This document shows positions 1 to 40,283 of a DNA stretch of 52,163 nt, piece by piece (the stretch's first letter is position 1; each line of letters starts with the position of its first letter). The notes under the pieces were generated by a model. That model had not been told where the DNA came from, searched no databases, and saw nothing but the letters and a program-made list of their open reading frames with translations. Position numbers and translations under genes: made by a program. Source of the DNA: Actinomycetes bacterium (GTDB lineage Bacteria; Actinomycetota; Acidimicrobiia; Acidimicrobiales; GCA-2861595); the NCBI GenBank assembly GCA_023264975.1, contig JAHFUS010000023.1:1-52163 (forward strand), read 5' to 3'.

Positions 1-44
1 GTCCGCACGGTCAGGCCGGAAGGAGAACCGTTGCGGATCCGCCG

Positions 45-94
45 TTCTGGTCGGTGGATCGTGGCGGAACTTCGCACCGCTCCACCGACCAGAA
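45..94. terminator. Perfect 14-bp inverted repeat downstream of the VOC gene
   Basis: Bases 45-58 and 81-94 are perfect reverse complements separated by 22 bases. The hairpin lies just beyond the stop codon of the minus-strand VOC gene, so a terminator or mRNA 3'-end stabiliser is likely. There is no T-tract. The arms begin TTCTGGT and end ACCAGAA, as does a second hairpin at 45532-45579. Confidence 0.55.
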
Positions 95-116
95 GGACCG
101 CCGCAGTTCGCTGCGT

Positions 117-896
117 CTAGGTGGTTGGCCCGCCGGCGATCAGCTTGAAGTGGGCGCCGGTGACGTCGGAGGCGGTGGCCAGGCGGCCGTAGGGCGTGTC
201 CTCGGCCGGCGTGACGATGGCGCCCCCCAGCTCGACGGCCCGGGCCAGCGCGGCGTCGGCGTCCGTCACCCGGAAGTAGACGGACCAGTGGGCGGGCACG
301 CCCTCGGGCAGGAAGGCGCCGGCGTCCATGATGCCCGCCTCCTGCGTATCGGCGTCGCCGTAGGTGGAGTAGCGGAACTCGGGGGACTCGCTCATGGTCC
401 GGACGGGCCACCGGAACACGTCGCGGTAGAAGGCGACGGAGGCGTCGTAGTCGCGGGTGAGCAGTTCGAACCAGGCGGCGGTGCCGGGCTCGTTCAGGAC
501 GGCGAAGCCCTTGAAGGTGCCCGGCTGCCAGGCGCCCACGGCGGCGCCGCCGGGGTCGGTGACCACCGACATGGTGCCGAGGTCCGCCACGTCCATGGGC
601 GGCACGATGACGTGGCCGCCGTTGGCCTCCGCCGTCTCGACCGTCTTGCGGGCGTCGTCGGTCGTCAGGTGCACCGACCAGACGTCGGGCATGCCTCCGG
701 AGCCGTCGTTGCGCATCCCGCCGCCGACGGCCTGGCCGTCCTTGGCGAAGGTGATGTAGCCGCCGAACTCCTCGCCTGCGTCCTCCGACGTCCAGCCGAA
801 GAGGTCGCCGTAGAACGACCGGCTGGCAACGGGGTCCGACGTGTACAGGTCGATCCAGCAGGGGGCGCCGATCGGGGTTTCGTCGCGGGTGGGCAT
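117..896 (-). CDS. VOC-family (glyoxalase/bleomycin-resistance fold) protein
   Basis: The 259-residue product has two tandem vicinal-oxygen-chelate modules. The first, about residues 8-125, opens with PCWIDLYTSDPVASRSFYG; the second, about 135-255, opens with AAWFELLTRDYDASVAFYRD. Each shows the beta-alpha-beta-beta-beta pattern of the fold. This two-module form is common in actinobacteria and is often annotated as a glyoxalase-like or hydroxylase-type protein, but the substrate cannot be read from the sequence. The ATG at 896 is chosen because AAGGAG lies just upstream and the VOC fold starts immediately after it. The same frame stays open to about 2000, but that extension lies antisense to other genes and has no family features. 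The product is probably cytoplasmic, as no signal peptide is seen. Confidence 0.9.
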   Translation of the reverse strand: MPTRDETPIGAPCWIDLYTSDPVASRSFYGDLFGWTSEDAGEEFGGYITFAKDGQAVGGGMRNDGSGGMPDVWSVHLTTDDARKTVETAEANGGHVIVPPMDVADLGTMSVVTDPGGAAVGAWQPGTFKGFAVLNEPGTAAWFELLTRDYDASVAFYRDVFRWPVRTMSESPEFRYSTYGDADTQEAGIMDAGAFLPEGVPAHWSVYFRVTDADAALARAVELGGAIVTPAEDTPYGRLATASDVTGAHFKLIAGGPTT

Positions 897-1079
897 GGGG
901 TCTCCTTCGGGCGGTGAGCGCGTGGTCGCCAGTCGTGACGCTACGGCAGGGCCGAACTCGTCGCTCGGTCGCGCTGATGAATTCTCTGGGCAGCGACCGT
1001 CCTTCCTTCGAGCCGCCCGCGCCGGCCGGGTGAAAAGGCGAGAAGGCGAACCAGTGGCCGCAGTCGTAGGGTTCTCCCA

Positions 1080-1325
1080 GTGGCGGTTCGATCCCTTCGG
1101 CCAGGGCCTCCAGCCGGAGGACTTCGAGCAGGGCACACGAGCAACGGGCGGTATGTCGAGCGCAGTGAGCGCTCCGCCCTGGTGGCCGCGCAGGAGCCGC
1201 TCGGCCTCACCTGGTTCGAGTTCGCACCAGCCGACGCGGGCCGCCTCGAGGACCTGGTGGCCCGGCTCCGGGCCACCGAGTGGGCCTATGTGGACCGCGA
1301 GGTCGACGTGCGGCTCAGCAGGTAA
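1080..1325 (+). CDS. Small hypothetical protein, possibly frameshifted
   Basis: The last 50 or so residues (for example EPLGLTWFEFAPADAGRLED) read like genuine protein with an acidic helix, and the stop lies three bases before the ATG of the next gene. The N-terminal part in this frame is Arg/Gly/Pro-rich and looks like noise. The neighbouring frame from about 1054 reads sensibly (FSQWRFDPFGQGLQPEDFE) until about 1140, so a frameshift near 1140-1150 may split one gene of about 90 codons. I do not recognise the family. Its position suggests co-transcription with the following FAD enzyme. Confidence 0.35.
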   Translation: MAVRSLRPGPPAGGLRAGHTSNGRYVERSERSALVAAQEPLGLTWFEFAPADAGRLEDLVARLRATEWAYVDREVDVRLSR

Positions 1326-1328
1326 CAA

Positions 1329-2858
1329 ATGGCCGGCGTGGACGTCGTGGTGGGCGCCGGCCACAACGGCCTGGTGGCCGCCTGCTACCTGGCCCTCGCC
1401 GGTCGGGACGTGCTGGTGGTCGAGCAGCTCGACCGGCCCGGCGGGGGGTCGCGTACCGAGGAGACCATTCCCGGGTACCGCTTCGACCTCCACTCGGCCG
1501 CCCACAACATCATCAACATGACCGACATCCCGGTCGAGCTCGACCTGGCCGGCGCCGGCCTCGACTACGTCGAGATGGACCCGTTCTCGGTCGCCGTGCA
1601 CGCCGACGGGCGCAGGGTGCGCTTCCACCGGTCCATCGAGGCGACGCTCGAGTCGATCGCCGAGGAGTCGCCGTCGGAAGCGGCCGCCTACAGGCGGTTC
1701 CTCGACACTGCCGTGCCGCTGGTGCGCACCGTCCTGCCCGCCATCCGAGGCGACACGTCGGCCCGGGCGCTCCCCGGTCAGGTGGTCAACGCCGTGCGGG
1801 CGTTGCGCCACCAGCCCCTCACCACCGTCCGCGACGTCCTCAGCCCCTACGACTCGCTTCTCCGCCGCCGCCTGTCGTCGGACCTGACCCGGGGGCCGGT
1901 GGCCGCCTTCGCCGCCCACGCCGGCGTGGGGCCCACGGTGCCGGGCGGAGCGCTCTACGCCTTCTGGCAGGCGGCGTACCACCTGTTCGGCCAGTGGCAC
2001 GGCCGGGGCGGCGCCCAGAACCTCACCGACGCCCTCGTCTCACGCCTCACCTCGCTCGGCGGCGAGGTGCGGTGCTCGGCGCCGGTGGAGCGCATCGAGG
2101 CGGGAGGCGGCCGGGTACGGGCGGTGGTGCTCGAGGGAGGCGAGCGCATCGAGGCGTCCACCGTCATCACCGCCATCGATCCCAAGACGGCGCTGCTCGA
2201 CCTGCTCGACCCGCCCCTCGACGGCGAGGCCGGCGCCGACCTGGCCGCTGCCCGGCGCTCCAACGTCGTGCAGGCGGTGGTGCACGTGGCCACTGATCGC
2301 CTGCCTGCCTATCCGGGCGGCCGTCCCGGGGACTGGAACGGCCTTCAGAGCTACGTGGACCGCCTCGACGACCTCTCCTCGGCCTGGGCGCAGGCCGAGG
2401 CCGGGCTGCTCCCCGACCCGCTGCCCCTGTACGCCTTCACCCCCTCGGCCATCGACGACGGGCTGGCGCCGCCCGGCCAGCACACCGTCTACCTGGCCTG
2501 CCCGGCGGCGCCGTCTAGGGTGGACGGTGGGTGGGCCGCCCGGCGCGACGATCTGGTCGAGCGAAGCCTCGACGTGCTGGAGGCGCGGGCCCCGGGCGTG
2601 CGCAGTTCCGTGCTCGGCGTCGCCACCTGGACACCCGACGAGATGGAGCGGGTGGAGCGCTGGCCCGGCGGCCACCCGATGTACCTCGACATCGCCCTGG
2701 ACCAGCTCGGGCCGTTCCGTCCCACCAAGCGCCTCGGCGGCTGGCGCACCCCGGTGGGCGGCCTCTACATCTCCGGCGCCGGCACCAACCCCACCGGCGG
2801 CATCGCCGGCACGCCGGGGCGCCAGGCGGCCCGGGCCCTCCTGGCCGACCAGAAGTGA
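1329..2858 (+). CDS. CrtI-like FAD-dependent oxidoreductase (phytoene desaturase superfamily)
   Basis: The 509-residue protein starts with a dinucleotide-binding fold, VVVGAGHNGLVAACYLA (residues 6-22), followed by VEQLDRPGG, the ADP-ribose part of the FAD site. The C-terminus GGLYISGAGTNPTGGIAGTPG is the typical closing FAD motif of phytoene-desaturase-like enzymes. Length fits the family. These enzymes take hydride from hydrophobic substrates such as carotenoids, but no phytoene synthase or other carotenoid gene lies nearby. The substrate is therefore unknown, and a retinol-saturase-like or FAD-carotenoid oxidoreductase role is only a family-level guess. The ATG follows the previous stop by three bases. 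The enzyme is probably cytoplasmic or membrane-associated. Confidence 0.85.
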   Translation: MAGVDVVVGAGHNGLVAACYLALAGRDVLVVEQLDRPGGGSRTEETIPGYRFDLHSAAHNIINMTDIPVELDLAGAGLDYVEMDPFSVAVHADGRRVRFHRSIEATLESIAEESPSEAAAYRRFLDTAVPLVRTVLPAIRGDTSARALPGQVVNAVRALRHQPLTTVRDVLSPYDSLLRRRLSSDLTRGPVAAFAAHAGVGPTVPGGALYAFWQAAYHLFGQWHGRGGAQNLTDALVSRLTSLGGEVRCSAPVERIEAGGGRVRAVVLEGGERIEASTVITAIDPKTALLDLLDPPLDGEAGADLAAARRSNVVQAVVHVATDRLPAYPGGRPGDWNGLQSYVDRLDDLSSAWAQAEAGLLPDPLPLYAFTPSAIDDGLAPPGQHTVYLACPAAPSRVDGGWAARRDDLVERSLDVLEARAPGVRSSVLGVATWTPDEMERVERWPGGHPMYLDIALDQLGPFRPTKRLGGWRTPVGGLYISGAGTNPTGGIAGTPGRQAARALLADQK

Positions 2859-2925
2859 TCTGAGCCGGCGCTCATCGACCTGGCCCCATCCGACTCCGGA
2901 GCGGGTGGGTGGGAGAGTCTGTGCC

Positions 2926-3147
2926 ATGAGCACCGTGCAGGAACCGCCGAAACGTTTCAGCGTCATCAACGATGGCCTGTACCTGATCATCGTCACCGCC
3001 CTGGCCTTGTACTTCGTGATCGGCGGCATCGCCTGGGCGGTGCTCACCTACGAAGGCAAGAGGATGCCCGAGGGCCTGGCAGCCACCATCGCCACGGTGG
3101 GCGGCGGGCTCCTCGGTGTTCTCTCGCCGACCAAGAAGGACGCCTGA
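2926..3147 (+). CDS. Small membrane protein
   Basis: The product has 73 residues. One clear hydrophobic helix (about residues 18-40, YLIIVTALALYFVIGGIAWAV) is followed by a polar stretch and a Gly-rich second hydrophobic segment (about 50-66). It ends in a charged SPTKKDA tail, so one or two membrane passes are possible. The ATG is preceded by GGGAG at a usable distance. I do not recognise a family. The gene is convergent with the GMC oxidoreductase gene downstream, with 91 bases between them. Confidence 0.65.
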   Translation: MSTVQEPPKRFSVINDGLYLIIVTALALYFVIGGIAWAVLTYEGKRMPEGLAATIATVGGGLLGVLSPTKKDA

Positions 3148-3238
3148 CCGCTCGACGCCGGCGTTGACGGTTTGACGTGGACGGCGCCGGCTCAGGCCGT
3201 GGAGCGGGTTGGGGCCGCGGATGCCGGACGTCCCGCGC

Positions 3239-5647
3239 CTACTGACCGGCGCCGGCCTTCACGCCGAACACGTCCCACAGGTCGGCCAGGAAGGAGCGGC
3301 CGAAGCGGGCGAGAGCGGCGGCCCGGTCGAGTGGTCCGGACCCACCGTGGACGGCGAAGGTGGTGAGCTGGCGGGCGAAGTCGGGCACCAGGATGTGCAG
3401 GATGCCGCTCGCCACCAACTCGGCGTCGGTGTCGCCCTCGACCGGCACGTGGCCGCGGAGCAGGCGGACGTACAGCGTGGACGTGTCGCTCCACACGTCG
3501 AAGCCGGCGTCGTCGTGCACGTCCTTGTAGCCGCTCATGGTGAGGGGGTGGCCGGTGGGGTCGGTGAAGAACAGCCGGTAGTACATGTGGGTGCGACCGG
3601 GGCCGGCGTCGGCCACGAACAGGTTGAAGTCGCCCCGCTCCACCTCCATGCGCCCACCCAGGGCGTCGCAGTGCACCCACCCGGCGGCGGAGCCGAGGTG
3701 GTCGGCGTCGTCCAGGAAGCGGTCCACATCTGGCGCGGTGATGGTGAGGTGGAACATGAATGCGTTGCCTTCGGCCCTGCCCGAATCGAAGGCGGCCTCG
3801 TGGTCGGTGGCGCCGAAGGCGATGAAGCCCTTCATCTCCTCGGTGAACGTCAGCGTCTTGACGTCGCCGTCGGGGGACGGGCCGCCGGCCGGCGGGGGAG
3901 GCGCGACCGGGTCGATGTGGGGCACGGGGCGCACGGTGGAGCCGGTGGACTGGGAAGCTTCGAGCAGGTGGTCGACCGCCCGGTCGGCGAAGGCGGCGAT
4001 GGTGAGCGACGGGTTGGCGCCGACGGGCCCGGGCATCACCGATCCGTCGAGCACGTGCAGGCCGGCGTAGGCGAACGACTCGCCCCACTGGTCCACCACG
4101 CCCTCGGACACGTTGCGGCCCATGGGGGCGCCGCCGAGCGGGTGCACGGTGACGACCTTCTTGATCAACGAGATCGGGTTGTCGACGAGGTCGCCGCCCA
4201 GCTCGCCGGCCAGCGCCTGCATGGTGCCCCGGAGCCGGTCGAAGAAGGCGCGGGAGGTGGCCGTGGTCCAGTCGATCTCCAGCTGGCCCCGCCGCAGGCG
4301 CATGACGCCGTCGGGGGCGTCGCGCCCCATGCCGAGGAGGGGCAGGGAGGCGGATGACAGGGTGGCCTCGCCGATCAGCGACGCCAGCTCCACGCTCAGC
4401 GAGCTGCGGGGGTTCCTGCGGATCTGCGAGATGACCCGGGCCGCCACGATGCGCAGGACGCGCCGGAACCGGGTGGGGGCGGTGACCGCCTCGGCCATCC
4501 AGTCTACGGCTACCGGGTAACCGGCGTCCTCGATGTAGTAGCCGGGCCCGCTGCCGCCGTCCGCCGTGTCGGGGACACGCACGTAGCTGGTGATCACCGG
4601 CCCGAGGCTGCTGTCGATGACGCGGTACGGCGTGCGGCCGGTGCCCTTCCGGTGGGCGCCCATGATGATCCCGAGCAAGTCGCCGTTGCCGCAGAACCGG
4701 GTGCCCAGGGCGGGGCCGAGGTCGGGGAACGCGCTGCGGTTGCGGAGGAGGAGCCCGGTCGTGCCGAGCGTGCCCGCTGCTACGACCAGCCGGTCGCAGC
4801 TCACCCAGGTGAGGGGCAGCTTGTCGGTGTTGACCTTCACGCCCTCGTGCTCGGGGCCGTAGGCGACGTAGCCGACCATGAAGCCGCCGTCCGGGTCGCG
4901 CTCGATGCTGTGGACCTCGCAGCGGGTGCGGATGTCTGCCCCGTGGTGCCTGGCCGCCGACAGGTAGGTGTGGTCGAGGGTGTTCTTGCTGCCCTCGTTG
5001 CACCCGATGTTGCACTCGCCGCACAGCCGGCACGTGCGGCGGGGCACGCCGTGGATATTGGGGAAGGCGCCCTCGGGGATGGGCTCGGCCACCGCTGCCG
5101 GCCGGCCCCGGTTGGCGAAGGTGACGGCCAGGGGCGGCAGGCCCCACTCGAGGCCGAGGCCGGCGGCCGCGTCCCGCAGGGCCAGCGTCTTCGCCGGCGA
5201 CGGGTACCCCGGTGCGCCGAGCGGGAACGTCTGGACGCCCATCATCCGCTCGACCCGTTCGTAGTGGGGCTCGAGGTCGGCCCGGCTGATGGGCCAGTTC
5301 TCGTAGCCGCCTCCCACCGGGTGCTCGTGCACGAACCACCGCTCGTCCTTGCGCAGGAGGACGTTGGCGTAGATCAGCGACCCGCCGCCCAGGCCGCTCG
5401 ACACCAGCGCCTCGATGCCCTTGAAGGTCCAGATGTCGAACAGGCCGTGGTAGCCGCGAGAGGGGTCCCACACGTTGGCGGCCATCTCCCTCGGGCGGCG
5501 GGGGAAGCCGCCGGGCGGGTAGGGCTTCCCCCGCTCCAGCACGAGCACCGAGCGGCCCGCGTCGGCCAGGCGGTAGGCCGCCACCGACCCGCCGAACCCG
5601 GACCCGACGACGACCACATCGACGTGCGCATCGGCCTCGCGTCGCAT
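3239..5647 (-). CDS. GMC-family oxidoreductase, cholesterol-oxidase type, with an extra C-terminal domain
   Basis: The 802-residue flavoprotein begins with VVVVGSGFGGSVAAYRLADA (about residues 11-30), the FAD-binding glycine motif, then SGLGGGSLIYANV. A Cys cluster, CRLCGECNIGCNEGSKNT, matches the cholesterol-oxidase/ChoD-like branch. HPLGGAPMG carries the conserved active-site His, and MPGPVGANPSLTIAAFADRA closes the FAD site. The oxidoreductase core ends near residue 570. After a Pro-rich linker about 210 more residues follow (from LTFTEEMKGFIAFG), a beta-rich domain also seen in some fused GMC proteins. A steroid or other hydrophobic alcohol is the likely substrate. No signal peptide is seen. 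AAAGGGG precedes the ATG, and a TACGTT hexamer lies 28 bases upstream of the start (5675-5680, minus). Confidence 0.88.
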   Translation of the reverse strand: MRREADAHVDVVVVGSGFGGSVAAYRLADAGRSVLVLERGKPYPPGGFPRRPREMAANVWDPSRGYHGLFDIWTFKGIEALVSSGLGGGSLIYANVLLRKDERWFVHEHPVGGGYENWPISRADLEPHYERVERMMGVQTFPLGAPGYPSPAKTLALRDAAAGLGLEWGLPPLAVTFANRGRPAAVAEPIPEGAFPNIHGVPRRTCRLCGECNIGCNEGSKNTLDHTYLSAARHHGADIRTRCEVHSIERDPDGGFMVGYVAYGPEHEGVKVNTDKLPLTWVSCDRLVVAAGTLGTTGLLLRNRSAFPDLGPALGTRFCGNGDLLGIIMGAHRKGTGRTPYRVIDSSLGPVITSYVRVPDTADGGSGPGYYIEDAGYPVAVDWMAEAVTAPTRFRRVLRIVAARVISQIRRNPRSSLSVELASLIGEATLSSASLPLLGMGRDAPDGVMRLRRGQLEIDWTTATSRAFFDRLRGTMQALAGELGGDLVDNPISLIKKVVTVHPLGGAPMGRNVSEGVVDQWGESFAYAGLHVLDGSVMPGPVGANPSLTIAAFADRAVDHLLEASQSTGSTVRPVPHIDPVAPPPPAGGPSPDGDVKTLTFTEEMKGFIAFGATDHEAAFDSGRAEGNAFMFHLTITAPDVDRFLDDADHLGSAAGWVHCDALGGRMEVERGDFNLFVADAGPGRTHMYYRLFFTDPTGHPLTMSGYKDVHDDAGFDVWSDTSTLYVRLLRGHVPVEGDTDAELVASGILHILVPDFARQLTTFAVHGGSGPLDRAAALARFGRSFLADLWDVFGVKAGAGQ

Positions 5648-6044
5648 CGGATCCCCTTTCGACCGCGGCCGAAGAACGTACCGTGCCGGCGGACAGTGCG
5701 AGCGCGTGCGGACCGGTCAGCGCAGGAGCACCGCCGCGGTACCGATCGGCGGACCGGGCCTGTTGTCCGGCACCCAGACCTCCACCTGGTGGCGGTGGCC
5801 TGAGGCACGGCCTCCATCCGCAGGCGCCGGTCAGCACCGCCCCCCGCGGTGCGACCGGCCCATGCCACCCGATCCCCCCGGGCCGCAACACCACGAGACT
5901 TGCACGCAGAAGCAGCTGCTGCATTGGGGCCAGCAGGTGTTGTGCGAGGGGGTGCCAGCACCCCCTCCCTGACCGGCGAAGGCCGTTCCGGGCGGTTCGC
6001 GCCGGTCGGCAGGTACCGGCGGTCCGGGCGGCGAACTTCGAGCC
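5648..6044. other. Intergenic region between divergent genes
   Basis: This 397-base region separates the divergent starts of the GMC oxidoreductase and the CAP-domain gene. It holds the candidate TACGTT promoter element of the GMC gene (5675-5680, minus) and a copy of a dispersed repeat (5715-5744). It also has a perfect 8-bp inverted repeat with a two-base loop (5948-5955 and 5958-5965) that could be an operator. No convincing coding sequence was found; the open frames are Pro/Arg-rich. Confidence 0.5.
5715..5744 (+). repeat. Dispersed 30-bp repeat, copy A
   Basis: This 30-base sequence matches 17623-17652 at 28 of 30 positions, and similarity continues for several bases on the outer side. 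A diverged relative lies at 9-41. In copy B the repeat encodes the last residues and stop of the CofC-like protein. Here the antisense reading gives a similar GTAAVLLR plus stop with no gene in front of it. Confidence 0.6.
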
Positions 6045-6953
6045 GTGCCCGGATCCCCCCGTGTGGTCCCAGCCGCTCCACGGGGGACACGGTGGGCCAC
6101 CGCCGCTCTCACCGTGGCGCTGGCATGCGTGCTGGTCGTGTCCGGCCGCGTGCCGGGGGCGGACGCCCAGACGGCCGGGGGACTCGAGGCGGACTTCGCG
6201 GCACGGGTCACCGCCGAGCGCCGGGCCGCCGGCCTCGGCGCCCTGGCAACGGAGGCCGACCTCGTCTCCGTTGCGAGGAACCACTCGGCGGACATGGCGG
6301 CGGCGAGCCGGCTGTACCACAACACCCTCCTTGGCCAGCAGGTGCAGGGGTGGCTGGTGGTCGCCGAGAACGTGGGCGTCGGCTCCTCGGTGGACCAGAT
6401 CCACGGGGACTTGATGGCCTCTGCGCCCCACCGGGCCGACATCCTCGACAACCGGTTCACGGGCATCGGCGTCGGCGTCGTGCAGTCCGGCGCCACTGTC
6501 TGGGTAACCCAGGTGTTCCGTCGCAGCGCCGGCGCCCCGCCTCCCTCACCCGCCGTCGCGCCACCCGCCCCTCCCTCGCCGGCAGTGGCTGCCCCCGCCG
6601 GCGCCGCGTCGCCCCCGCCGGCCCGCACGGCCCCGCCCCGAGCCGCTCGTCAGGCTCCGACCGACACGGCGACCACAGCTTCCACGACGACGATCCCCGC
6701 CACGACCACGACGACCACCGCACCGATCATCGCCGTCCCGCCGACGGCCGCACCGATCATCGCCGTCCCGCCGACCACCGCCCCGTCGACGGCCGGCCTC
6801 CCCCTCGACACCCTCGCCGCCTCGTCGCCGCCCGTCGAGCCCCGGTCAGGACTGGTCGCCATGGGTCTGCTGGCGGCATTGCTCCTGTGGGCGGCGGCTG
6901 CGGCGGTCGTGAAGGTCGCCGTCCGGAACCACCTCGACGCCGCCCGCCCCTGA
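6045..6953 (+). CDS. CAP-domain (SCP/PR-1-like) exported protein with membrane anchor
   Basis: The 302-residue protein has an N-terminal signal segment (about 18-41, ending GADAQ). A short CAP domain (about 46-160) shows the pattern ARNHSADMAAASRLYHN, AENVGVG, APHRADILDNRFTGIGVGV and VWVTQVF. A long Pro/Ala/Thr-rich linker (160-255) contains a direct repeat, APIIAVPP twice. A C-terminal hydrophobic helix (about 275-295, MGLLAALLLWAAAAAVV) with a short basic tail would anchor it to the membrane or serve a sorting step. Bacterial CAP proteins are extracellular and mostly of unknown activity. The GTG start lacks a clear ribosome-binding site, so it could shift by a few codons. Confidence 0.85.
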   Translation: MPGSPRVVPAAPRGTRWATAALTVALACVLVVSGRVPGADAQTAGGLEADFAARVTAERRAAGLGALATEADLVSVARNHSADMAAASRLYHNTLLGQQVQGWLVVAENVGVGSSVDQIHGDLMASAPHRADILDNRFTGIGVGVVQSGATVWVTQVFRRSAGAPPPSPAVAPPAPPSPAVAAPAGAASPPPARTAPPRAARQAPTDTATTASTTTIPATTTTTTAPIIAVPPTAAPIIAVPPTTAPSTAGLPLDTLAASSPPVEPRSGLVAMGLLAALLLWAAAAAVVKVAVRNHLDAARP

Positions 6954-34688: not shown

Positions 34689-34949
34689 TCAGCGAACGAA
34701 GCCGCAGAGCTTGTGGCCGAGCTTGACGAGGGCGTACGGCTTCTTGTTCATGATCGATTCGGCGCGCGAGCCGCTGAAGGCGTTGGGGATGCCCATGCAG
34801 CCGCCCCCGAACTGCTCCTCGCGGACCGCCGGCGCGTAATCCGATGCCGGGACCAGGTCGGCCGGCATGGTGGGCGCGGGCAGGATCGACGACCGTACTT
34901 CGACCTCGCTACCAGGAGCGTCTTCCAATACGTCGACTGCTGTGGACAT
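34689..34949 (-). CDS. Small two-Cys peptide, possible precursor or secreted peptide
   Basis: The 86-residue protein has an acidic, Pro-rich first half (residues 1-45). A Gly-Gly-Gly follows at 48-50, then a 36-residue basic C-terminal part that starts with Cys51 (CMGIPNAFSGSRAESIMNKK) and has Cys82 near the end (KLGHKLCGFVR). The layout of acidic leader, GG site and basic two-Cys core recalls double-glycine leader peptides, though no dedicated transporter or maturase is adjacent. A clear GAAAGG ribosome-binding site lies upstream, and it has its own terminator and an inverted-repeat promoter region. The next gene upstream is a subtilisin-like protease on the same strand. I do not recognise a family; an ordinary small cytoplasmic protein is the alternative. 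Confidence 0.7.
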   Translation of the reverse strand: MSTAVDVLEDAPGSEVEVRSSILPAPTMPADLVPASDYAPAVREEQFGGGCMGIPNAFSGSRAESIMNKKPYALVKLGHKLCGFVR

Positions 34950-34993
34950 GCCGACCGCCTTTCTGCGCCGGGGCCACCCTCAGTGGCGACAGC

Positions 34994-35024
34994 CCCTAGT
35001 ATCGCACCTAGTTCCGTCCTAGGG
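34994..35024 (-). promoter_or_regulatory. Inverted repeat CCCTAG...CTAGGG upstream of the peptide gene
   Basis: The hexamers at 34994-34999 and 35019-35024 are inverted copies, with a third CTAG-containing site between them. On the minus strand a GGAAC element, as found in many ECF -35 boxes, lies at 35011-35015. It is a candidate promoter or operator for the peptide gene, about 50-70 bases before its ATG. Confidence 0.4.
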
Positions 35025-35087
35025 ACCCCCCAATCTCGTCGCCGGCCCGGCCCTGGCCGGCCGCGAGCCCGACGCCGCGTGGCGCGG

Positions 35088-36371
35088 TCAGTCGATGAAC
35101 GTCCCCATGCCGGACGGACCGGGCGACCCGGCCGCCAGGACCTCGTCCAACGCCTCACGGGGCGACAGCCGGCGCTCGGACGTCATGGTGGCGGCGATGG
35201 CCCCGACCACGCGAGGAGCGGCGAATGACGTTCCGCTCCACACGGCCGTTGCATCAACGCCGAAGTTGAGGGAGGGCGCTCCCAGTGGCAACGGCATGTC
35301 GCCCTCGAGATAGGTGCTGCGCAGGCCCACGCCGTGCGCACAGGCCCGCACCCACGGGCCCCGGTTGCTCCACTCGGCCGGATCGCCCTTGCCGTCGACG
35401 GCGGCGACACCCACCACGTGTTCGAAGCCCTCGATGCCGCCGAAGGCGGCCGGCCACATCTTCTGCTCGGGTACGCCGGCCTTCTCGGCTTGCAGAAAGT
35501 CGTTGCCGGCGGCCGCCACCACGACGGTGTCGGTCCGATCGCGCACGGCCTCCAGCGCCCGCCGCAGCGCCTCGGGGGGCTCGTGGTCCTCGCTCGGCCC
35601 GGCCAGCGACAGGTTCAAGATGTGGGTCCCCTTGGCGCCGAGGATGTCGAGGGCCAGCTCCACGTCGTCGACCAGGCCGACGTCGTCCAGCGTCACCTCC
35701 GGGTTGAGATCGGTGTCCGGGGCCAGCTGGCGGATGACGCCGGCGATGAACGTGCCGTGGCCGCCGAACACCGAGCGGATGTGGCGCCGGGCCTCGTCGT
35801 AGAAGCCGTCGTGGTCGTCGCCGTCGTCGGCGTAGTTGTGCGAGAGCAGGGGATGCTTGGACGTGCTCTGCTTGACGAAGCCGGTGTCGAGGATCGACAC
35901 ACGCACGCCCTTGCCTGTGCCCGGACGCTTGGAGGACTCGACCGTCACGGGGCCGGTCCCGCCGTCCTGGGGAAGGTCGCCGGGGCCGAACTTCATGATC
36001 GGCGCCCCGGCCATGATGTGGCTGAGCGTGACCGCCCGCCGGGGGGCACGGTGGCCGGCCTTGTCCCTGATCGCCATCATCGACCGGCGTGCGTCGGCAT
36101 TGGGGCCGAAGAGCCGCCACTGGCGGATACCGAGGCGGTCGAGCTGCCGGCCGTCGCGGCTGTGGCACCGGACCCGCCGGGCGCCTTCGGCGGCGAGGAG
36201 GTCGGCCAGCTCCCCTTCGAATTTGGCGTCTACGAGCAGCTGGTCGGGGCGGTAGAGGTACCGCTCCGGGCCCTCGGCGTACCAGGCGACCCGGCGATCC
36301 TTCTCGATGGCATACCAGACGATGTCGGCGGCCAGCTCCGCCGACCTGGCTGGATCGATGTGCTCGGGCAT
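35088..36371 (-). CDS. S8 subtilisin-like serine protease, cytoplasmic type
   Basis: The 427-residue protein has a complete catalytic triad: Asp162 in VSILDTGF, His205 in GGHGTFIAGVI, and Ser382 in SGTSFAAPRV. The oxyanion Asn lies in VAAAGNDF. The first 120 residues (RSAELAADIVWYAIEKDRRV, AWYAEGPERYLYRPDQLLVD) replace the usual signal and inhibitor propeptide and look like a separate helical domain. No signal peptide or membrane segment is present, so the enzyme acts inside the cell. The ATG at 36371 follows GAGGGGG. It is divergent from the TPR-CHAT protease gene, with 131 bases between, and upstream of the small peptide gene; a joint pathway is inferred from position only. Confidence 0.9.
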   Translation of the reverse strand: MPEHIDPARSAELAADIVWYAIEKDRRVAWYAEGPERYLYRPDQLLVDAKFEGELADLLAAEGARRVRCHSRDGRQLDRLGIRQWRLFGPNADARRSMMAIRDKAGHRAPRRAVTLSHIMAGAPIMKFGPGDLPQDGGTGPVTVESSKRPGTGKGVRVSILDTGFVKQSTSKHPLLSHNYADDGDDHDGFYDEARRHIRSVFGGHGTFIAGVIRQLAPDTDLNPEVTLDDVGLVDDVELALDILGAKGTHILNLSLAGPSEDHEPPEALRRALEAVRDRTDTVVVAAAGNDFLQAEKAGVPEQKMWPAAFGGIEGFEHVVGVAAVDGKGDPAEWSNRGPWVRACAHGVGLRSTYLEGDMPLPLGAPSLNFGVDATAVWSGTSFAAPRVVGAIAATMTSERRLSPREALDEVLAAGSPGPSGMGTFID

Positions 36372-36449
36372 GTCGTCCCCCTCGTCTCGCAACGCAGCGG
36401 CCGTCGTGCCGCACCCGACGCTTCTAGCATCTCGATCACGATGCGCCAA

Positions 36450-36469
36450 TCGATAGTTTCGTACATCGA
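36450..36469. promoter_or_regulatory. Short inverted repeat in the divergent protease promoter region
   Basis: TCGAT at 36450-36454 and ATCGA at 36465-36469 flank a ten-base spacer, midway between the two divergent protease genes. A shared operator is possible, but short repeats of this kind also arise by chance. Confidence 0.3.
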
Positions 36470-36502
36470 ATCCTGCGACGTTCGGGCTGGGCGCCGGCGG
36501 CG

Positions 36503-39133
36503 GTGACGTCGATCACAACCGATCTCGGCGAGCGCGCCTGCGAGGCGCTCGACGTGGCGACGGCCGAGCCCCGCCGGGCGCGGGTGCTGGCCGGACAGGT
36601 GCGGGTCGAGGCGAAGCGGGCGGGCCGGCCGGACGTGGCATCGATGGCGGAGCAGGCCCTCGGGCTGGCGGCGCGGGAGCTGGGCGAGATCGACGCCGCA
36701 GTCGCCCATCTGAGGAAGGCCGTTGCGGTGGCGGAGCGGGCCGGGCTGGTCAAGCGGGCGGCGGAGGCCCGGGCCAGCCTGGCGCCCACGCTGCAGTACG
36801 CCGGGCGTCCGGCCGACGCCTTGCGGGAGGCCGACACGGCGGCCGCCGTGCTGCGGGGGCCGGGGCTGGCCCGCCTCCAGCTGCAGCGGTCCGGCATCCT
36901 GCTCCGCCTCGAGCGCTTCGACGAGGCCCTCGCCCTGCTCCGGCCGGCGGCCGCCTCCTTCCGGCGGAACGGGGACACCCTCTGGGAGGCCCGCCTGCAC
37001 AACGCGCGGGGGATCATCAACGGCCACCGGGGCGCCCACCGCGCCGGCGACCGTGATTTCCGCCGGGCGGCGGAGTTGTTCGCCGCCACCGGCGACGAGG
37101 TTGCGGCCGCCCAAATGCTGTGCAACAGGGCGTGGCTGGCCGGCCGGTCGGGCGACGTACCGGGCGCGCTGGCCCTTTGGGACGACGCCGAAGCGCGCCT
37201 GCGGGAGCTGGGCATCCCCTTTGGCGCCGCCTACATCGATAAGTGCGAGGCCCTTCTTGCCGTCAACCTGGCGGCCGAGGCCCGCTCGACGGCTGAGCGG
37301 GCGGCCAGCGAGTTGGCGGCCGGCGGGATGGCCTCGGACATCCCCGAGGCCCAGATGAAGGTGGCGCAGGCGGCGCTGCTGGAGGGAGACCCCGCCGCCG
37401 CTGCCGCCGTGGCCGCCAGAGCGGCGCGGTCGTTCGGGCGCCAGCACCGCCCCGCCTGGGAAGCGATGGCCCGCTGGGCGGTGGTGCAGGCCAGGTACGA
37501 GGCCGGGTCGCGCTCGGCCGCCACCCAGCGCGCCGCCTCGGGCGCGGCCGACGTCCTCGCCGGTTTCGGCCAGTCGGTGGCCGCCCTCGACGCCCGCCTT
37601 GTCGCGGCCCGCATCGCCGTCCGCCGCGGGAAGGTCGACGAGGCGGACGCGCTCCTCGGATCTGTCCGGGTCCAGCGCCGCGCCCCGGCCGACGTGCGGG
37701 CCCGCGCCTGGTACGCCCAGGCCATGGTGCGTGACGCACGGGGCGACGGCGCGGGAGCCGACCGGTGCCTGCACGCCGGCTGGCGGGTGCTGGACCAGTA
37801 CCGGGCCAGCCTGGGCGCCACCGAGTTGCGGGCCAGCGTGGCGGGCCACGGCCGGGAGCTGGCCCGCCTCGGCGTGGCGCGGGGACTGGCGGCCGGCCGG
37901 CCGGCGTCCGTCCTGCGTTGGGCCGAGCGGGGGCGGGCCGCCGCTCTGCGGCTGCGACCGGTACTACCGCCGGCGGAGGGCGCGCTGGCTCGCGACCTGG
38001 CCGAGGTGAGGGAGGTGGCGTCCGCCCTGGCCAAGGCGGAGTCCCGGCCCGAGGCAGACAGACTGGAGGCGCGGCAGGTCGCCCTCGAGGCGTCGATCCG
38101 CCGCCACGCCCGGCAGGCGGCCGGCTCGGGGACAGTCGACGACGTGCCCACCCTGGACCGCCTGGCTGCCGCCCTCGGGTCGTCCGTGCTGGTGGAGATC
38201 GTGGCGCTTGACGGGTTCCTCCACGCCCTGGTCGTGCGGGAGGGTCGAGCCGTGCTGCGCCCCCTCGGCCCGGCGGAGGTGGCGGACACCGAGGTCGAGC
38301 ACCTCCGCTTCGCCCTGCGCCGGCTGGCGCTGCGGCGGGGCTCGGAGGCGTCCATGGCGGCGGCGGCGGCCGGCGCGGCGGCGGCGGCGGACAGGCTGGA
38401 GGCGCTCCTGCTGGCGCCGGTGGCAGGCGACATCGGCGACCGGGCCCTCGTGCTCTCGCCCCCGGGACGCCTCCACGTCCTGCCCTGGTCGATGCTCCCA
38501 ACCTGCCACGGCCGCCCGCTCTGCATCGTCCCGTCGGCCGCACTCTGGCTGAAGGGCGCCGGCGGGGCCCGGCGTGGCGGCAGGGCGCTCCTGGTCGCCG
38601 GGCCCGACCTTCCCCATGCCGTCGATGAGGTCGACCTGCTCCATGCGGCCTATCCGAAGGCGACCGTCCTCGCCGGCGCCGGCGCCACGGCGACGGCGGT
38701 GGGGCGGGGGATGGCCGCCGCCGACCTGGCCCACGTCGCCGCCCACGGATCCTTCCGGTCCGACAACCCGCTGTTCTCCTGCCTGCGCCTGGCCGACGGC
38801 CCGTTCACCGTCTACGACCTCGAGGCCCTGCGCACCGCACCGCCCCTGCTCGTGCTGTCGGCATGCGACTCCGGGCTGTCGTCCGTGCGCCCGGGCGACG
38901 AGCTGATGGGCCTCGCCTCGGCCCTGTTCATGATCGGCACCAGGGCGCTGGTGGCCAGCGTCGGTCCCGTGCCGGACGACACCACCAAGGGCCTCATGGT
39001 CGACTTCCACCACAGGCTCGTAGCCGGGGCCTCGCCAGCCGCGGCCCTGGCCGCCGCCGGCGGCAGTCGCCGGGCGTCCACGGACCCGGCGTGGGTGACG
39101 GCTGCGTCCTTTCTCTGCTTCGGCGCCGGCTGA
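36503..39133 (+). CDS. TPR-CHAT caspase-like protease
   Basis: The 876-residue protein has TPR-like helical repeats across about residues 1-400 (for example LGEIDAAVAHLRKAVAVAER and RFDEALALLRPAAASFRRNG). A long helical linker follows, then a CHAT peptidase domain from about 560 to the end. The dyad is intact: His748 in HVAAHGSF and Cys788 in VLSACDSG, with GLASALFMIGTRALVASVG after it. CHAT proteases cleave specific partner proteins after activation, with TPRs as the sensor or scaffold, as in known bacterial gasdermin and Craspase systems. The GTG at 36503 is the first start in frame. An ECF-type sigma factor and a small beta-rich protein follow on the same strand, and an S8 protease is divergent. 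Confidence 0.92.
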   Translation: MTSITTDLGERACEALDVATAEPRRARVLAGQVRVEAKRAGRPDVASMAEQALGLAARELGEIDAAVAHLRKAVAVAERAGLVKRAAEARASLAPTLQYAGRPADALREADTAAAVLRGPGLARLQLQRSGILLRLERFDEALALLRPAAASFRRNGDTLWEARLHNARGIINGHRGAHRAGDRDFRRAAELFAATGDEVAAAQMLCNRAWLAGRSGDVPGALALWDDAEARLRELGIPFGAAYIDKCEALLAVNLAAEARSTAERAASELAAGGMASDIPEAQMKVAQAALLEGDPAAAAAVAARAARSFGRQHRPAWEAMARWAVVQARYEAGSRSAATQRAASGAADVLAGFGQSVAALDARLVAARIAVRRGKVDEADALLGSVRVQRRAPADVRARAWYAQAMVRDARGDGAGADRCLHAGWRVLDQYRASLGATELRASVAGHGRELARLGVARGLAAGRPASVLRWAERGRAAALRLRPVLPPAEGALARDLAEVREVASALAKAESRPEADRLEARQVALEASIRRHARQAAGSGTVDDVPTLDRLAAALGSSVLVEIVALDGFLHALVVREGRAVLRPLGPAEVADTEVEHLRFALRRLALRRGSEASMAAAAAGAAAAADRLEALLLAPVAGDIGDRALVLSPPGRLHVLPWSMLPTCHGRPLCIVPSAALWLKGAGGARRGGRALLVAGPDLPHAVDEVDLLHAAYPKATVLAGAGATATAVGRGMAAADLAHVAAHGSFRSDNPLFSCLRLADGPFTVYDLEALRTAPPLLVLSACDSGLSSVRPGDELMGLASALFMIGTRALVASVGPVPDDTTKGLMVDFHHRLVAGASPAAALAAAGGSRRASTDPAWVTAASFLCFGAG

Positions 39134-39193
39134 ACGGCCCGGTCACGGGATCGCAACGCGGCCGGGATGCCGTGGCGCCGCCCGCCCGGCGCC

Positions 39194-39199
39194 TACGAT
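39194..39199 (+). promoter_or_regulatory. Leaderless-type -10 hexamer TACGAT for the ECF sigma gene
   Basis: The hexamer ends 6 bases before the GTG at 39206. The sigma gene may thus be transcribed apart from the CHAT gene. Confidence 0.55.
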
Positions 39200-39205
39200 C
39201 ACGCC

Positions 39206-39793
39206 GTGAGCCACGCCGACGATGCCGCCCTCGTGCGGGCGGCGGCCGGCGGCGACCAGGCGGCGTGGGACGCCCTGGTGAAGCGCTTCAGCGGGCTGGT
39301 GTGGTCGATCGCCCGGTCCCACCGTCTCGGTGCCGCCGACGCGGCTGACGTGTCCCAGACGGCGTGGCTGCGCCTGGTGGAGAACCTCGACCGGCTGCGC
39401 GACCCCGAGCGGGTCGGCGCCTGGCTGGCCACCACCAGCCGCAACGAGTGCCTCCGCGTCATCCGCCGGTCGGGCCGCCAGGTGCCCACGGACATCGAGG
39501 CCGCCATCGACCTGGAGGCGGACGAGACGGTGGCGCCGCCGGTCGACGCCGGCCTGCTGGCGGGGGAGCGCGACGCCGACCTGTGGGCGGCCTTTGCCAT
39601 GATCAGCGAGCGCTGCCAGGTCCTGCTCCGCCTCCTCATCGCCGACCCCACGCCGACCTACGACGAGATCGGCGAGATCCTCGGCATGGCGGTCGGCAGC
39701 ATCGGTCCCACCCGCGCCCGCTGTCTGGAGCACCTCCGCCGCAAGAGCGGTATCACGGCGGGTCCGGGCCGACTCTCAGTCAGCGGGGAGTAA
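39206..39793 (+). CDS. ECF-type RNA polymerase sigma factor
   Basis: The 195-residue protein has region 2 (LVKRFSGLVWSIARSHRLGA, then DVSQTAWLRLVENLDRLRDP and WLATTSRNECLRVIRR). Region 4 is also present (ISERCQVLLRLLIADPTPTY, DEIGEILGMAVGSIGPTRAR and CLEHLRR). It lacks region 3, as ECF factors do. It should direct RNA polymerase to a small regulon under a cognate control protein. No transmembrane anti-sigma gene follows; the next gene, 10 bases on, encodes a small soluble protein that could take that role. The GTG at 39206 sits behind a -10 hexamer and just before region 2. Confidence 0.9.
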   Translation: MSHADDAALVRAAAGGDQAAWDALVKRFSGLVWSIARSHRLGAADAADVSQTAWLRLVENLDRLRDPERVGAWLATTSRNECLRVIRRSGRQVPTDIEAAIDLEADETVAPPVDAGLLAGERDADLWAAFAMISERCQVLLRLLIADPTPTYDEIGEILGMAVGSIGPTRARCLEHLRRKSGITAGPGRLSVSGE

Positions 39794-39803
39794 GGAGGCA
39801 GTC

Positions 39804-40283
39804 ATGGCGGAGGACGTGCGACCGGAGGAGGAGGACGATCGGCTGTTCGAGACGTTGCGCGCTGTCGCCCAGCGCCTCGACCCCGTGCCGGCCGAGGTGG
39901 AGGCCGCCGCCCGCGGCGCCTACACGTGGCGCACGGTCGACGCCGAACTGGCCGAGCTTGCCTACGACTCGCTGCTGGACGACGACCGCCTGGCCGGCGT
40001 GCGGGCCGACGACGCGCCGCGCACCCTCACGTTCGAGGGCCCCGCCTACAGCGTGGAGATCGAGGTGGCGACCGACGGCGGCGGTCGTCGCCTGCTGGGC
40101 CAGCTGGTACCGCCGGCGCCGGCGCAGATCGAGGTCCGTCACTCGGGTGGCCTGCTCCGCCTGGGCGCCGACGAGGTCGGCCGGTTCTCGGCCGAAGGCG
40201 TGGCACCCGGCCCGGTCAGCCTTCGCTGCATGCTCGAGGGCGCTGACGGCCCGCCGCTGGACACGGCCTGGGTCACCGTCTGA
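39804..40283 (+). CDS. Small beta-rich protein linked to the ECF sigma factor
   Basis: The 159-residue acidic protein has helices first (residues 10-65: DDRLFETLRAVAQRLDPVPA, DAELAELAYDSLLDDD). A beta-sandwich-like domain follows (70-159: RTLTFEGPAYSVEIEVATDG, QIEVRHSGGLLRLGADEVGR, VSLRCMLEGADG). The second half resembles carboxypeptidase-regulatory-like folds. GGAGG lies six bases before the ATG, and the gene follows the sigma gene by 10 bases. I infer that it is a cognate regulator of the sigma factor or a substrate of the neighbouring proteases; neither is shown by sequence alone. Confidence 0.75.
   Translation: MAEDVRPEEEDDRLFETLRAVAQRLDPVPAEVEAAARGAYTWRTVDAELAELAYDSLLDDDRLAGVRADDAPRTLTFEGPAYSVEIEVATDGGGRRLLGQLVPPAPAQIEVRHSGGLLRLGADEVGRFSAEGVAPGPVSLRCMLEGADGPPLDTAWVTV

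Follow-up and report, generated by a model that had tools for sequence, protein, structure and literature searches.

An ECF54-type sigma factor module with two conserved proteases and a putative soluble anti-sigma partner in an Acidimicrobiales genome

The 3.8 Mb draft genome of an Actinomycetes bacterium of the order Acidimicrobiales (assembly GCA_023264975.1) includes the contig JAHFUS010000023.1, whose entire 52,163 nucleotides we refer to as the window. Within it lie genes for a cytosolic subtilase of family S8 (S8), a cysteine protease with a tetratricopeptide repeat (TPR) array and a CHAT domain (CHAT), an extracytoplasmic function (ECF) sigma factor and a small protein of 159 residues, which we call B159. 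The four almost certainly form one functional unit, and the module is real and widespread across Actinomycetota. A proteolytic link to the sigma factor is plausible. In the model we favor from sequence comparisons, and to which we give slightly less than even credence, CHAT, with S8, would cut B159 as a putative anti-sigma factor and so free the sigma factor.

The gene arrangement and the general idea of proteolysis are already published for the sigma factor group ECF54 (Huang 2015; Casas-Pastor 2021; reviewed in PMC8999054). The 2022 review describes subtilase, CHAT and carboxypeptidase genes beside actinobacterial ECF sigma factors and proposes proteolytic control from gene context (section 3.3), with the control of AntA by ClpXP as a precedent; it speaks of no anti-sigma factor (PMC8999054). 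The window module is of the ECF54 type, an assignment made by ECF domain and gene context and not by an ECF54 profile. Its sigma factor is of the ECF type and the subtilase and CHAT context is conserved, while the carboxypeptidase trait is matched only as the regulatory-like domain PF13620 in homologues of B159. The “carboxypeptidase” of the review is most probably B159, which combines helices with an immunoglobulin (Ig)-like domain and is not a peptidase. What is new here is the identity assigned to this neighbor, a candidate site of cleavage that has correlative support, and a promoter class together with first targets, an injection system among them; S8-CHAT pairs in trans also go beyond the review.

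The original prediction, made from the window alone and unaware of ECF54 and of the Craspase and DdvA precedents, had grouped these genes as a module, and they adjoin one another in most of the related genomes examined. To count linkage, we took 48 named loci that had been found with the sigma factor as the only seed and that extended at least 7 kb to either side. B159, CHAT and S8 were all present in 26 of these loci, and 11 more held one or both proteases in an incomplete set (six B159 and S8, four B159 and CHAT, one CHAT and S8 with B159 further off). Three loci held B159 alone and eight held none of the partners; for several loci without linked proteases, the proteases were found elsewhere in the genome. 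The scan with the sigma factor alone returned named loci from Solirubrobacter, Catellatospora, Dactylosporangium, Catenulispora, Micromonospora, Actinokineospora, Nitriliruptorales, Acidimicrobiia and others. With B159 as the seed instead, 26 of 29 loci had the sigma factor no more than 1.5 kb away, and B159 was detected in 40 of 396 sampled Actinomycetota genomes (~10%). In many families of the order, sigma factor and B159 behave as a travelling pair with varying gene order, usually accompanied by CHAT and S8. When neighboring genes were clustered, only the sigma factor, B159, CHAT and S8 families recurred across many genera, the next clusters being generic (ABC-type and similar). None of the fetched loci held a natural fusion that joined B159 to the sigma factor or to a protease. 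An unlinked CHAT gene usually lies elsewhere in the genome and is then almost always paired with S8, so that the module really consists of two pairs, S8-CHAT and sigma-B159. Saccharothrix tamanrassetensis (G465, the genome of L093) has a dozen TPR-CHAT profile matches, including a second complete module (L198).

Both proteases look competent for catalysis as originally predicted. The S8 triad D188/H231/S408 is present, together with N316, in the numbering of a 453-residue open reading frame (ORF) that is open to a TTG at 36449, and to the eye its N-terminal region looks like a subtilase pro-domain. Hydropathy indicated no signal peptide or membrane helix in S8, in agreement with the prediction, nor in CHAT, the sigma factor or B159. 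Among S8 homologues, the catalytic D, H and N were found in 54 of 54 and the S in 52 of 53; the predicted CHAT dyad H748/C788 is likewise present and was conserved in 52 of 52 homologues. Because the catalytic residues are practically invariant, both active sites are, as judged from these alignments, kept by selection. CHAT consists of a TPR-like helical array (residues about 8-477) and a CHAT domain (about 551-876), and its AlphaFold2 model has a mean predicted local distance difference test score (pLDDT) of 91.5. The best fold match was the TPR-CHAT protein of Craspase (7y83_D, Z 32.7); other matches were separase (5fby, Z 30.3, 310 residues aligned at 2.8 A) and DdvA (8rw5, Z 24.6, 586 residues aligned). 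In two Dactylosporangium S8-CHAT clusters a caspase-like gene, metacaspase-looking by eye, follows CHAT (L210, 340-1113; L215, 5102-5953), and both clusters also hold a copy of B159 without a sigma factor.

The AlphaFold2 model of B159 has a mean pLDDT of 86.6. Two helices (residues 7-25 and 30-62) are followed by a linker (63-72), with pLDDT below 50 at 63-67, and by a C-terminal seven-stranded beta-sandwich (73-159) similar to Ig and fibronectin type III (FN3) domains; pLDDT is above 90 for most of 71-159. The best match of the sandwich to Ig/FN3-like folds had a Z of 9.4 (87 residues aligned, 2.4 A), a value that is common for sandwiches. CarboxypepD_reg (PF13620), which is not a peptidase but a regulatory-like sandwich domain, was matched by 21 of 49 B159 homologues (best E 1.6e-7), with the window member below threshold. 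Sequence comparisons found no relatedness of B159 to CHAT and no solved structure related to B159. Because it adjoins the ECF sigma factor, B159 is the natural candidate for an anti-sigma factor, a component missing from the published description of ECF54. It is probably a regulator of the sigma factor, which it would bind.

One residue of the B159 linker points to the proteases. Arg67 is identical in 112 of 112 canonical B159 proteins. If it is taken as P1, V is found at P2 in 69 of 89 and G or S at P1' in 77 of 89, the site reading LAGVR-A in the window B159 and LAGVR-G/S in most others. Where the fetched stretch around a canonical B159 held no CHAT, the protease was present elsewhere in 13 of 15 genomes, as it was in all six Dactylosporangium. 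At nine sigma loci with a diverged, site-less partner the family CHAT was absent from the genome (p 4e-5 against site-bearing genomes). Copies of B159 without a sigma factor beside S8-CHAT pairs retain the Arg (L202, L204), and sigma-less copies with a degenerate helix 2 retain the exact LAGVRG (L210, L211, L215). Since Arg67 is lost where the genome has no CHAT and kept in sigma-less copies, its presence follows the proteases, not the sigma factor. This pattern gives indirect support to B159 as a proteolytic target, a role suggested for it in the original prediction. We consider the chances evenly balanced that B159 is cleaved by CHAT and/or S8, and suggest only tentatively that the cut would be located at Arg67. 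Separase cuts after Arg, and Arg-specific relatives of CHAT include metacaspases and paracaspase in addition to separase, which fits an Arg at P1; separase is also among the top fold matches of the window CHAT. Such a residue suits the CHAT/separase clan, and a cut by the subtilase may also be possible.

The upstream regions of the sigma factor and S8 genes have in common a spaced motif, TGTATCA-N15/16-GCTC, which also occurs before B159 genes. There were 36 copies in 1.5 Mb of loci, compared with none of the reversed form and at most two with other spacings. Sites with a position weight matrix (PWM) score of at least 20 were found upstream of 34% of S8 genes, 13% of sigma factor genes and 1.3% of other genes; the matrix was trained on sites of these same loci, so these percentages are somewhat flattering, while neither the whole-genome counts nor the controls (other spacings, reversed form) depend on it. 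In whole genomes the pattern was present in 22 of 34 strong module carriers versus 6 of 34 for the reversed control. When motifs were searched for without a spacer, only the GTATC/GCTC pair stood out from GC-rich noise. The fixed spacing of the motif is that of an ECF promoter, and very probably it is the promoter of this sigma factor. Relatives of the sigma factor without B159, CHAT and S8 (L074, L082, L095) also have the motif upstream, and since it is present there the motif seems to follow the sigma factor rather than the proteases.

In Catellatospora and Allorhizocola (L039-L042, L045, L087, L088, L091, about 1-6,200) the motif precedes a contractile-injection-system operon directly behind CHAT, with sheath, gp19-like tube and CIS_tube genes (some Micromonosporaceae). 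Dactylosporangium vinaceum has a copy between S8 and CHAT, far from the sigma factor. Other matches are single and may be due to chance. The window genome has two exact matches, one before a putative secreted protein (L143) and one without a downstream gene (L158), and because of these contexts we do not claim a regulon for it. In Solirubrobacter soli (L172, 1501-2706) the motif lies before genes for a 47-61 aa peptide and an MvdD-type ATP-grasp protein, resembling a graspetide cluster, which could be a chance occurrence.

According to the favored model, B159 would be a soluble anti-sigma factor whose N-terminal helices hold the sigma factor and whose linker and Ig-like domain serve as a sensor or as a handle for the protease. 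The TPR array of CHAT would read a signal, presumably cytosolic, upon which CHAT, with S8 as a second protease, would cut the B159 linker, most simply after Arg67. The freed sigma factor would then drive S8, its own operon and/or B159, providing both positive feedback and a reset, and would also drive lineage-specific outputs such as the contractile injection system in Catellatospora.

Several observations weigh against this model. The published ECF54 proposal does without an anti-sigma factor. Arg67 could be structural: the low linker pLDDT may come from a shallow alignment, and LAGVR may form an edge strand. Partners without the site show divergence at D46, A50, G99, D123 and F128 as well; loss of Arg67 alone in protease-less genomes was thus not a clean test, other conserved positions being lost as well, and it was down-weighted. 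These partners come mostly from related metagenome-assembled genomes (MAGs) of Frankiales, which confounds the correlation by ancestry, and the sigma-less copies with a degenerate helix 2 all belong to one genus. Two genomes (G435, G321) have Arg67 and no CHAT was found in them, and three CHAT-bearing MAGs have no S8 of the module type. With respect to the motif, sites scoring at least 20 are missing from about two thirds of the loci, and there is no good match upstream of S8 or CHAT in the window. The sole copy in the window, about 55 nt before B159, is weak; two relatives have better-scoring counterparts there (18.8 and 17.1). The window copy overlaps codons for a conserved GIT and may be partly coincidental.

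The type III-E Craspase, with the TPR-CHAT protein Csx29, Csx30 and CASP-sigma, is a precedent for a TPR-CHAT protease that cuts an anti-sigma factor (PMC10028731). The window module is similar to it in the TPR-CHAT fold, the His/Cys dyad and the presence of an ECF sigma factor and a (here putative) inhibitor protein in one locus and, as proposed here, in autoregulation and the relief of sigma factor inhibition by a protease. However, the Csx29 model NF041237 scores 11.6 bits on the window CHAT against a cut-off of 300, B159 has 159 aa compared with 565 aa in Csx30, and the module contains S8 as a second protease. Cas7-11 and CRISPR were not among the recurrent neighbors across genera, and no separate search for CRISPR arrays was made. 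With a CHAT that falls far below the Csx29 cut-off and no recurrent Cas effector, the module is not a Craspase member, although it resembles Craspase in its proposed working. A fuller version of this comparison, possible though doubtful, is that of a CRISPR-free cytosolic counterpart, in which an Arg-specific, TPR-gated CHAT coupled to a subtilase would cut B159 after the invariant linker Arg and free a sigma factor with its own promoter class, amplifying the proteases and in some lineages firing an injection system.

The PDB entries of Myxococcus xanthus DdvA (8rot, 8rw5) describe it as a transmembrane anti-sigma factor, which means that TPR-CHAT folds are now tied to ECF sigma factors three times. 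The window CHAT shares this association, but it is soluble (no transmembrane helix, TPR helices from residue 8), its dyad is invariant and a small partner exists as a protein of its own. Separase also combines a helical repeat array with a CHAT-like protease domain; it is a eukaryotic cohesin protease with no sigma factor or subtilase partner. Signal-dependent proteolysis frees ECF sigma factors in RseA/DegS and similar systems (named in PMC10028731), where RseA-type anti-sigma factors are membrane-anchored, whereas all parts of the window module look cytosolic.

The main rival explanation, which we judge unlikely, is that the sigma factor and B159 only control expression, S8 and CHAT being outputs whose targets are other proteins, either cellular or foreign, for example in a death or conflict response. 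The higher frequency of the motif before S8 than before the sigma factor would be expected in that case, as would the existence of S8-CHAT pairs apart from the sigma factor, several with their own motif copy; the caspase-like gene after CHAT in two Dactylosporangium loci and the motif before the injection-system operon point the same way. What a role as outputs leaves unexplained is why the linker Arg of B159 tracks CHAT and why sigma-less B159 copies lie between S8 and CHAT. The published view that the proteases degrade the sigma factor itself and keep its level low, with no anti-sigma factor, has been stated from gene context and with the ClpXP-AntA precedent (PMC8999054), yet it seems improbable to us: it depends on the carboxypeptidase reading of the third neighbor, which looks like the non-peptidase B159, and B159 adjoins the sigma factor in nearly all of the B159-seeded loci.

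Less probable still is that the TPR-CHAT protein is itself the anti-sigma factor and, as in DdvA, releases the sigma factor by conformational change. DdvA is a solved anti-sigma factor with this fold, and its chain 8rot is the closest CHAT chain to the window protein by sequence profile (E 4.5e-12). Nevertheless, DdvA is transmembrane, whereas the soluble window CHAT lacks any additional N-terminal domain. Its His/Cys dyad is conserved without exception, which argues for catalysis, and unlinked S8-CHAT pairs exist without a sigma factor. A variant in the original prediction, that S8 or CHAT processes an 86-aa two-Cys peptide encoded next to S8 as a signal or toxin, is very improbable. The peptide gene adjoins S8 in the window and lies 2 kb from it in the sister genome, but it was not found with the module elsewhere and its upstream region is unlike the module motif.

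This peptide had been predicted to belong to the module, and we rejected it as a member. The ORF is real, with a 73% identical homologue in the sister genome and the family signature TS-I/F-LP..PT..PA ... LGH..CG (window 34689-35060). The second Cys is not conserved, however, since the sister peptide has only one, and a weak homologue in G003 is not linked to the module. Upstream of the peptide gene, strong conservation with the sister genome (GGGGGGTCCC..GG.CGGAACTAGGTGCGATACTAG) marks a different kind of promoter. In the sister genome a second subtilase and a 91-aa protein resembling a subtilase pro-domain are encoded between the peptide gene and S8 (L016, 2876-5160).

Table 1. Positions of the module genes and associated features in the window.
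Feature	Position	Strand	Basis or remark
86-aa peptide ORF, judged outside the module	34689..34949	-	homologue in sister genome and a weak unlinked one
Cytosolic S8 subtilase	35088..36371	-	Pfam S8 E 1.2e-21; 427 aa from its ATG
S8/CHAT divergent intergenic region	36372..36502	.	footprint CGCTTCTARCATCTC..TCACGATGCGCCAATCG..AGTTTCGTACATCG kept in sister genome (alignment with L016)
TPR-CHAT cysteine protease, 876 aa	36503..39133	+	Pfam CHAT E 5e-32; GTG start
ECF-type sigma factor	39206..39793	+	TIGR02937 E 2.6e-22, Sigma70_r2 E 1.7e-13
Weak promoter-like motif copy GGTATCA-N16-ACTCT, inside 3' end of sigma factor gene	39749..39776	+	PWM score 13.4
B159, putative soluble partner/anti-sigma factor, 159 aa	39804..40283	+	AlphaFold2, homologues
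Codon of B159 Arg67, proposed cleavage site	40002..40004	+	invariant linker residue; codon read back

The five ORFs of the original prediction were recovered at the positions it gave (Table 1). The divergence of S8 and CHAT over 131 nt proved exact (S8 ATG to CHAT GTG), and the ECF sigma factor gene is followed, as described there, by a small soluble protein 10 nt after its stop. For the sigma factor, homologues favor the GTG at 39206 as the start, with the ATG at 39167 as an alternative, and its alignment contains a conserved PxGSIGPTRxRCLxxLR. The set is flanked by genes for RsgA and a DUF3159 protein, which are unrelated household genes. PADLOC identified no known defense system and gave only weak BovA and subtilase matches. 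Two other CHAT proteins of the same genome (L002, L003) belong to another family; neither they nor their 20-kb surroundings (loci L027, L028, i.e., G000 C99, C54) match the window CHAT, S8, sigma factor or B159.

For ECF54 the review provides the gene context and no mechanism (PMC8999054). On the evidence of the B159 model, a likely misreading is corrected here, the “carboxypeptidase” neighbor appearing to be a binding domain and not an enzyme. If the favored model is true, control of a sigma factor by TPR-CHAT protease release would exist well outside CRISPR and be common in actinobacteria. It would also connect separase-like proteases with transcription and, in certain lineages, with injection systems.

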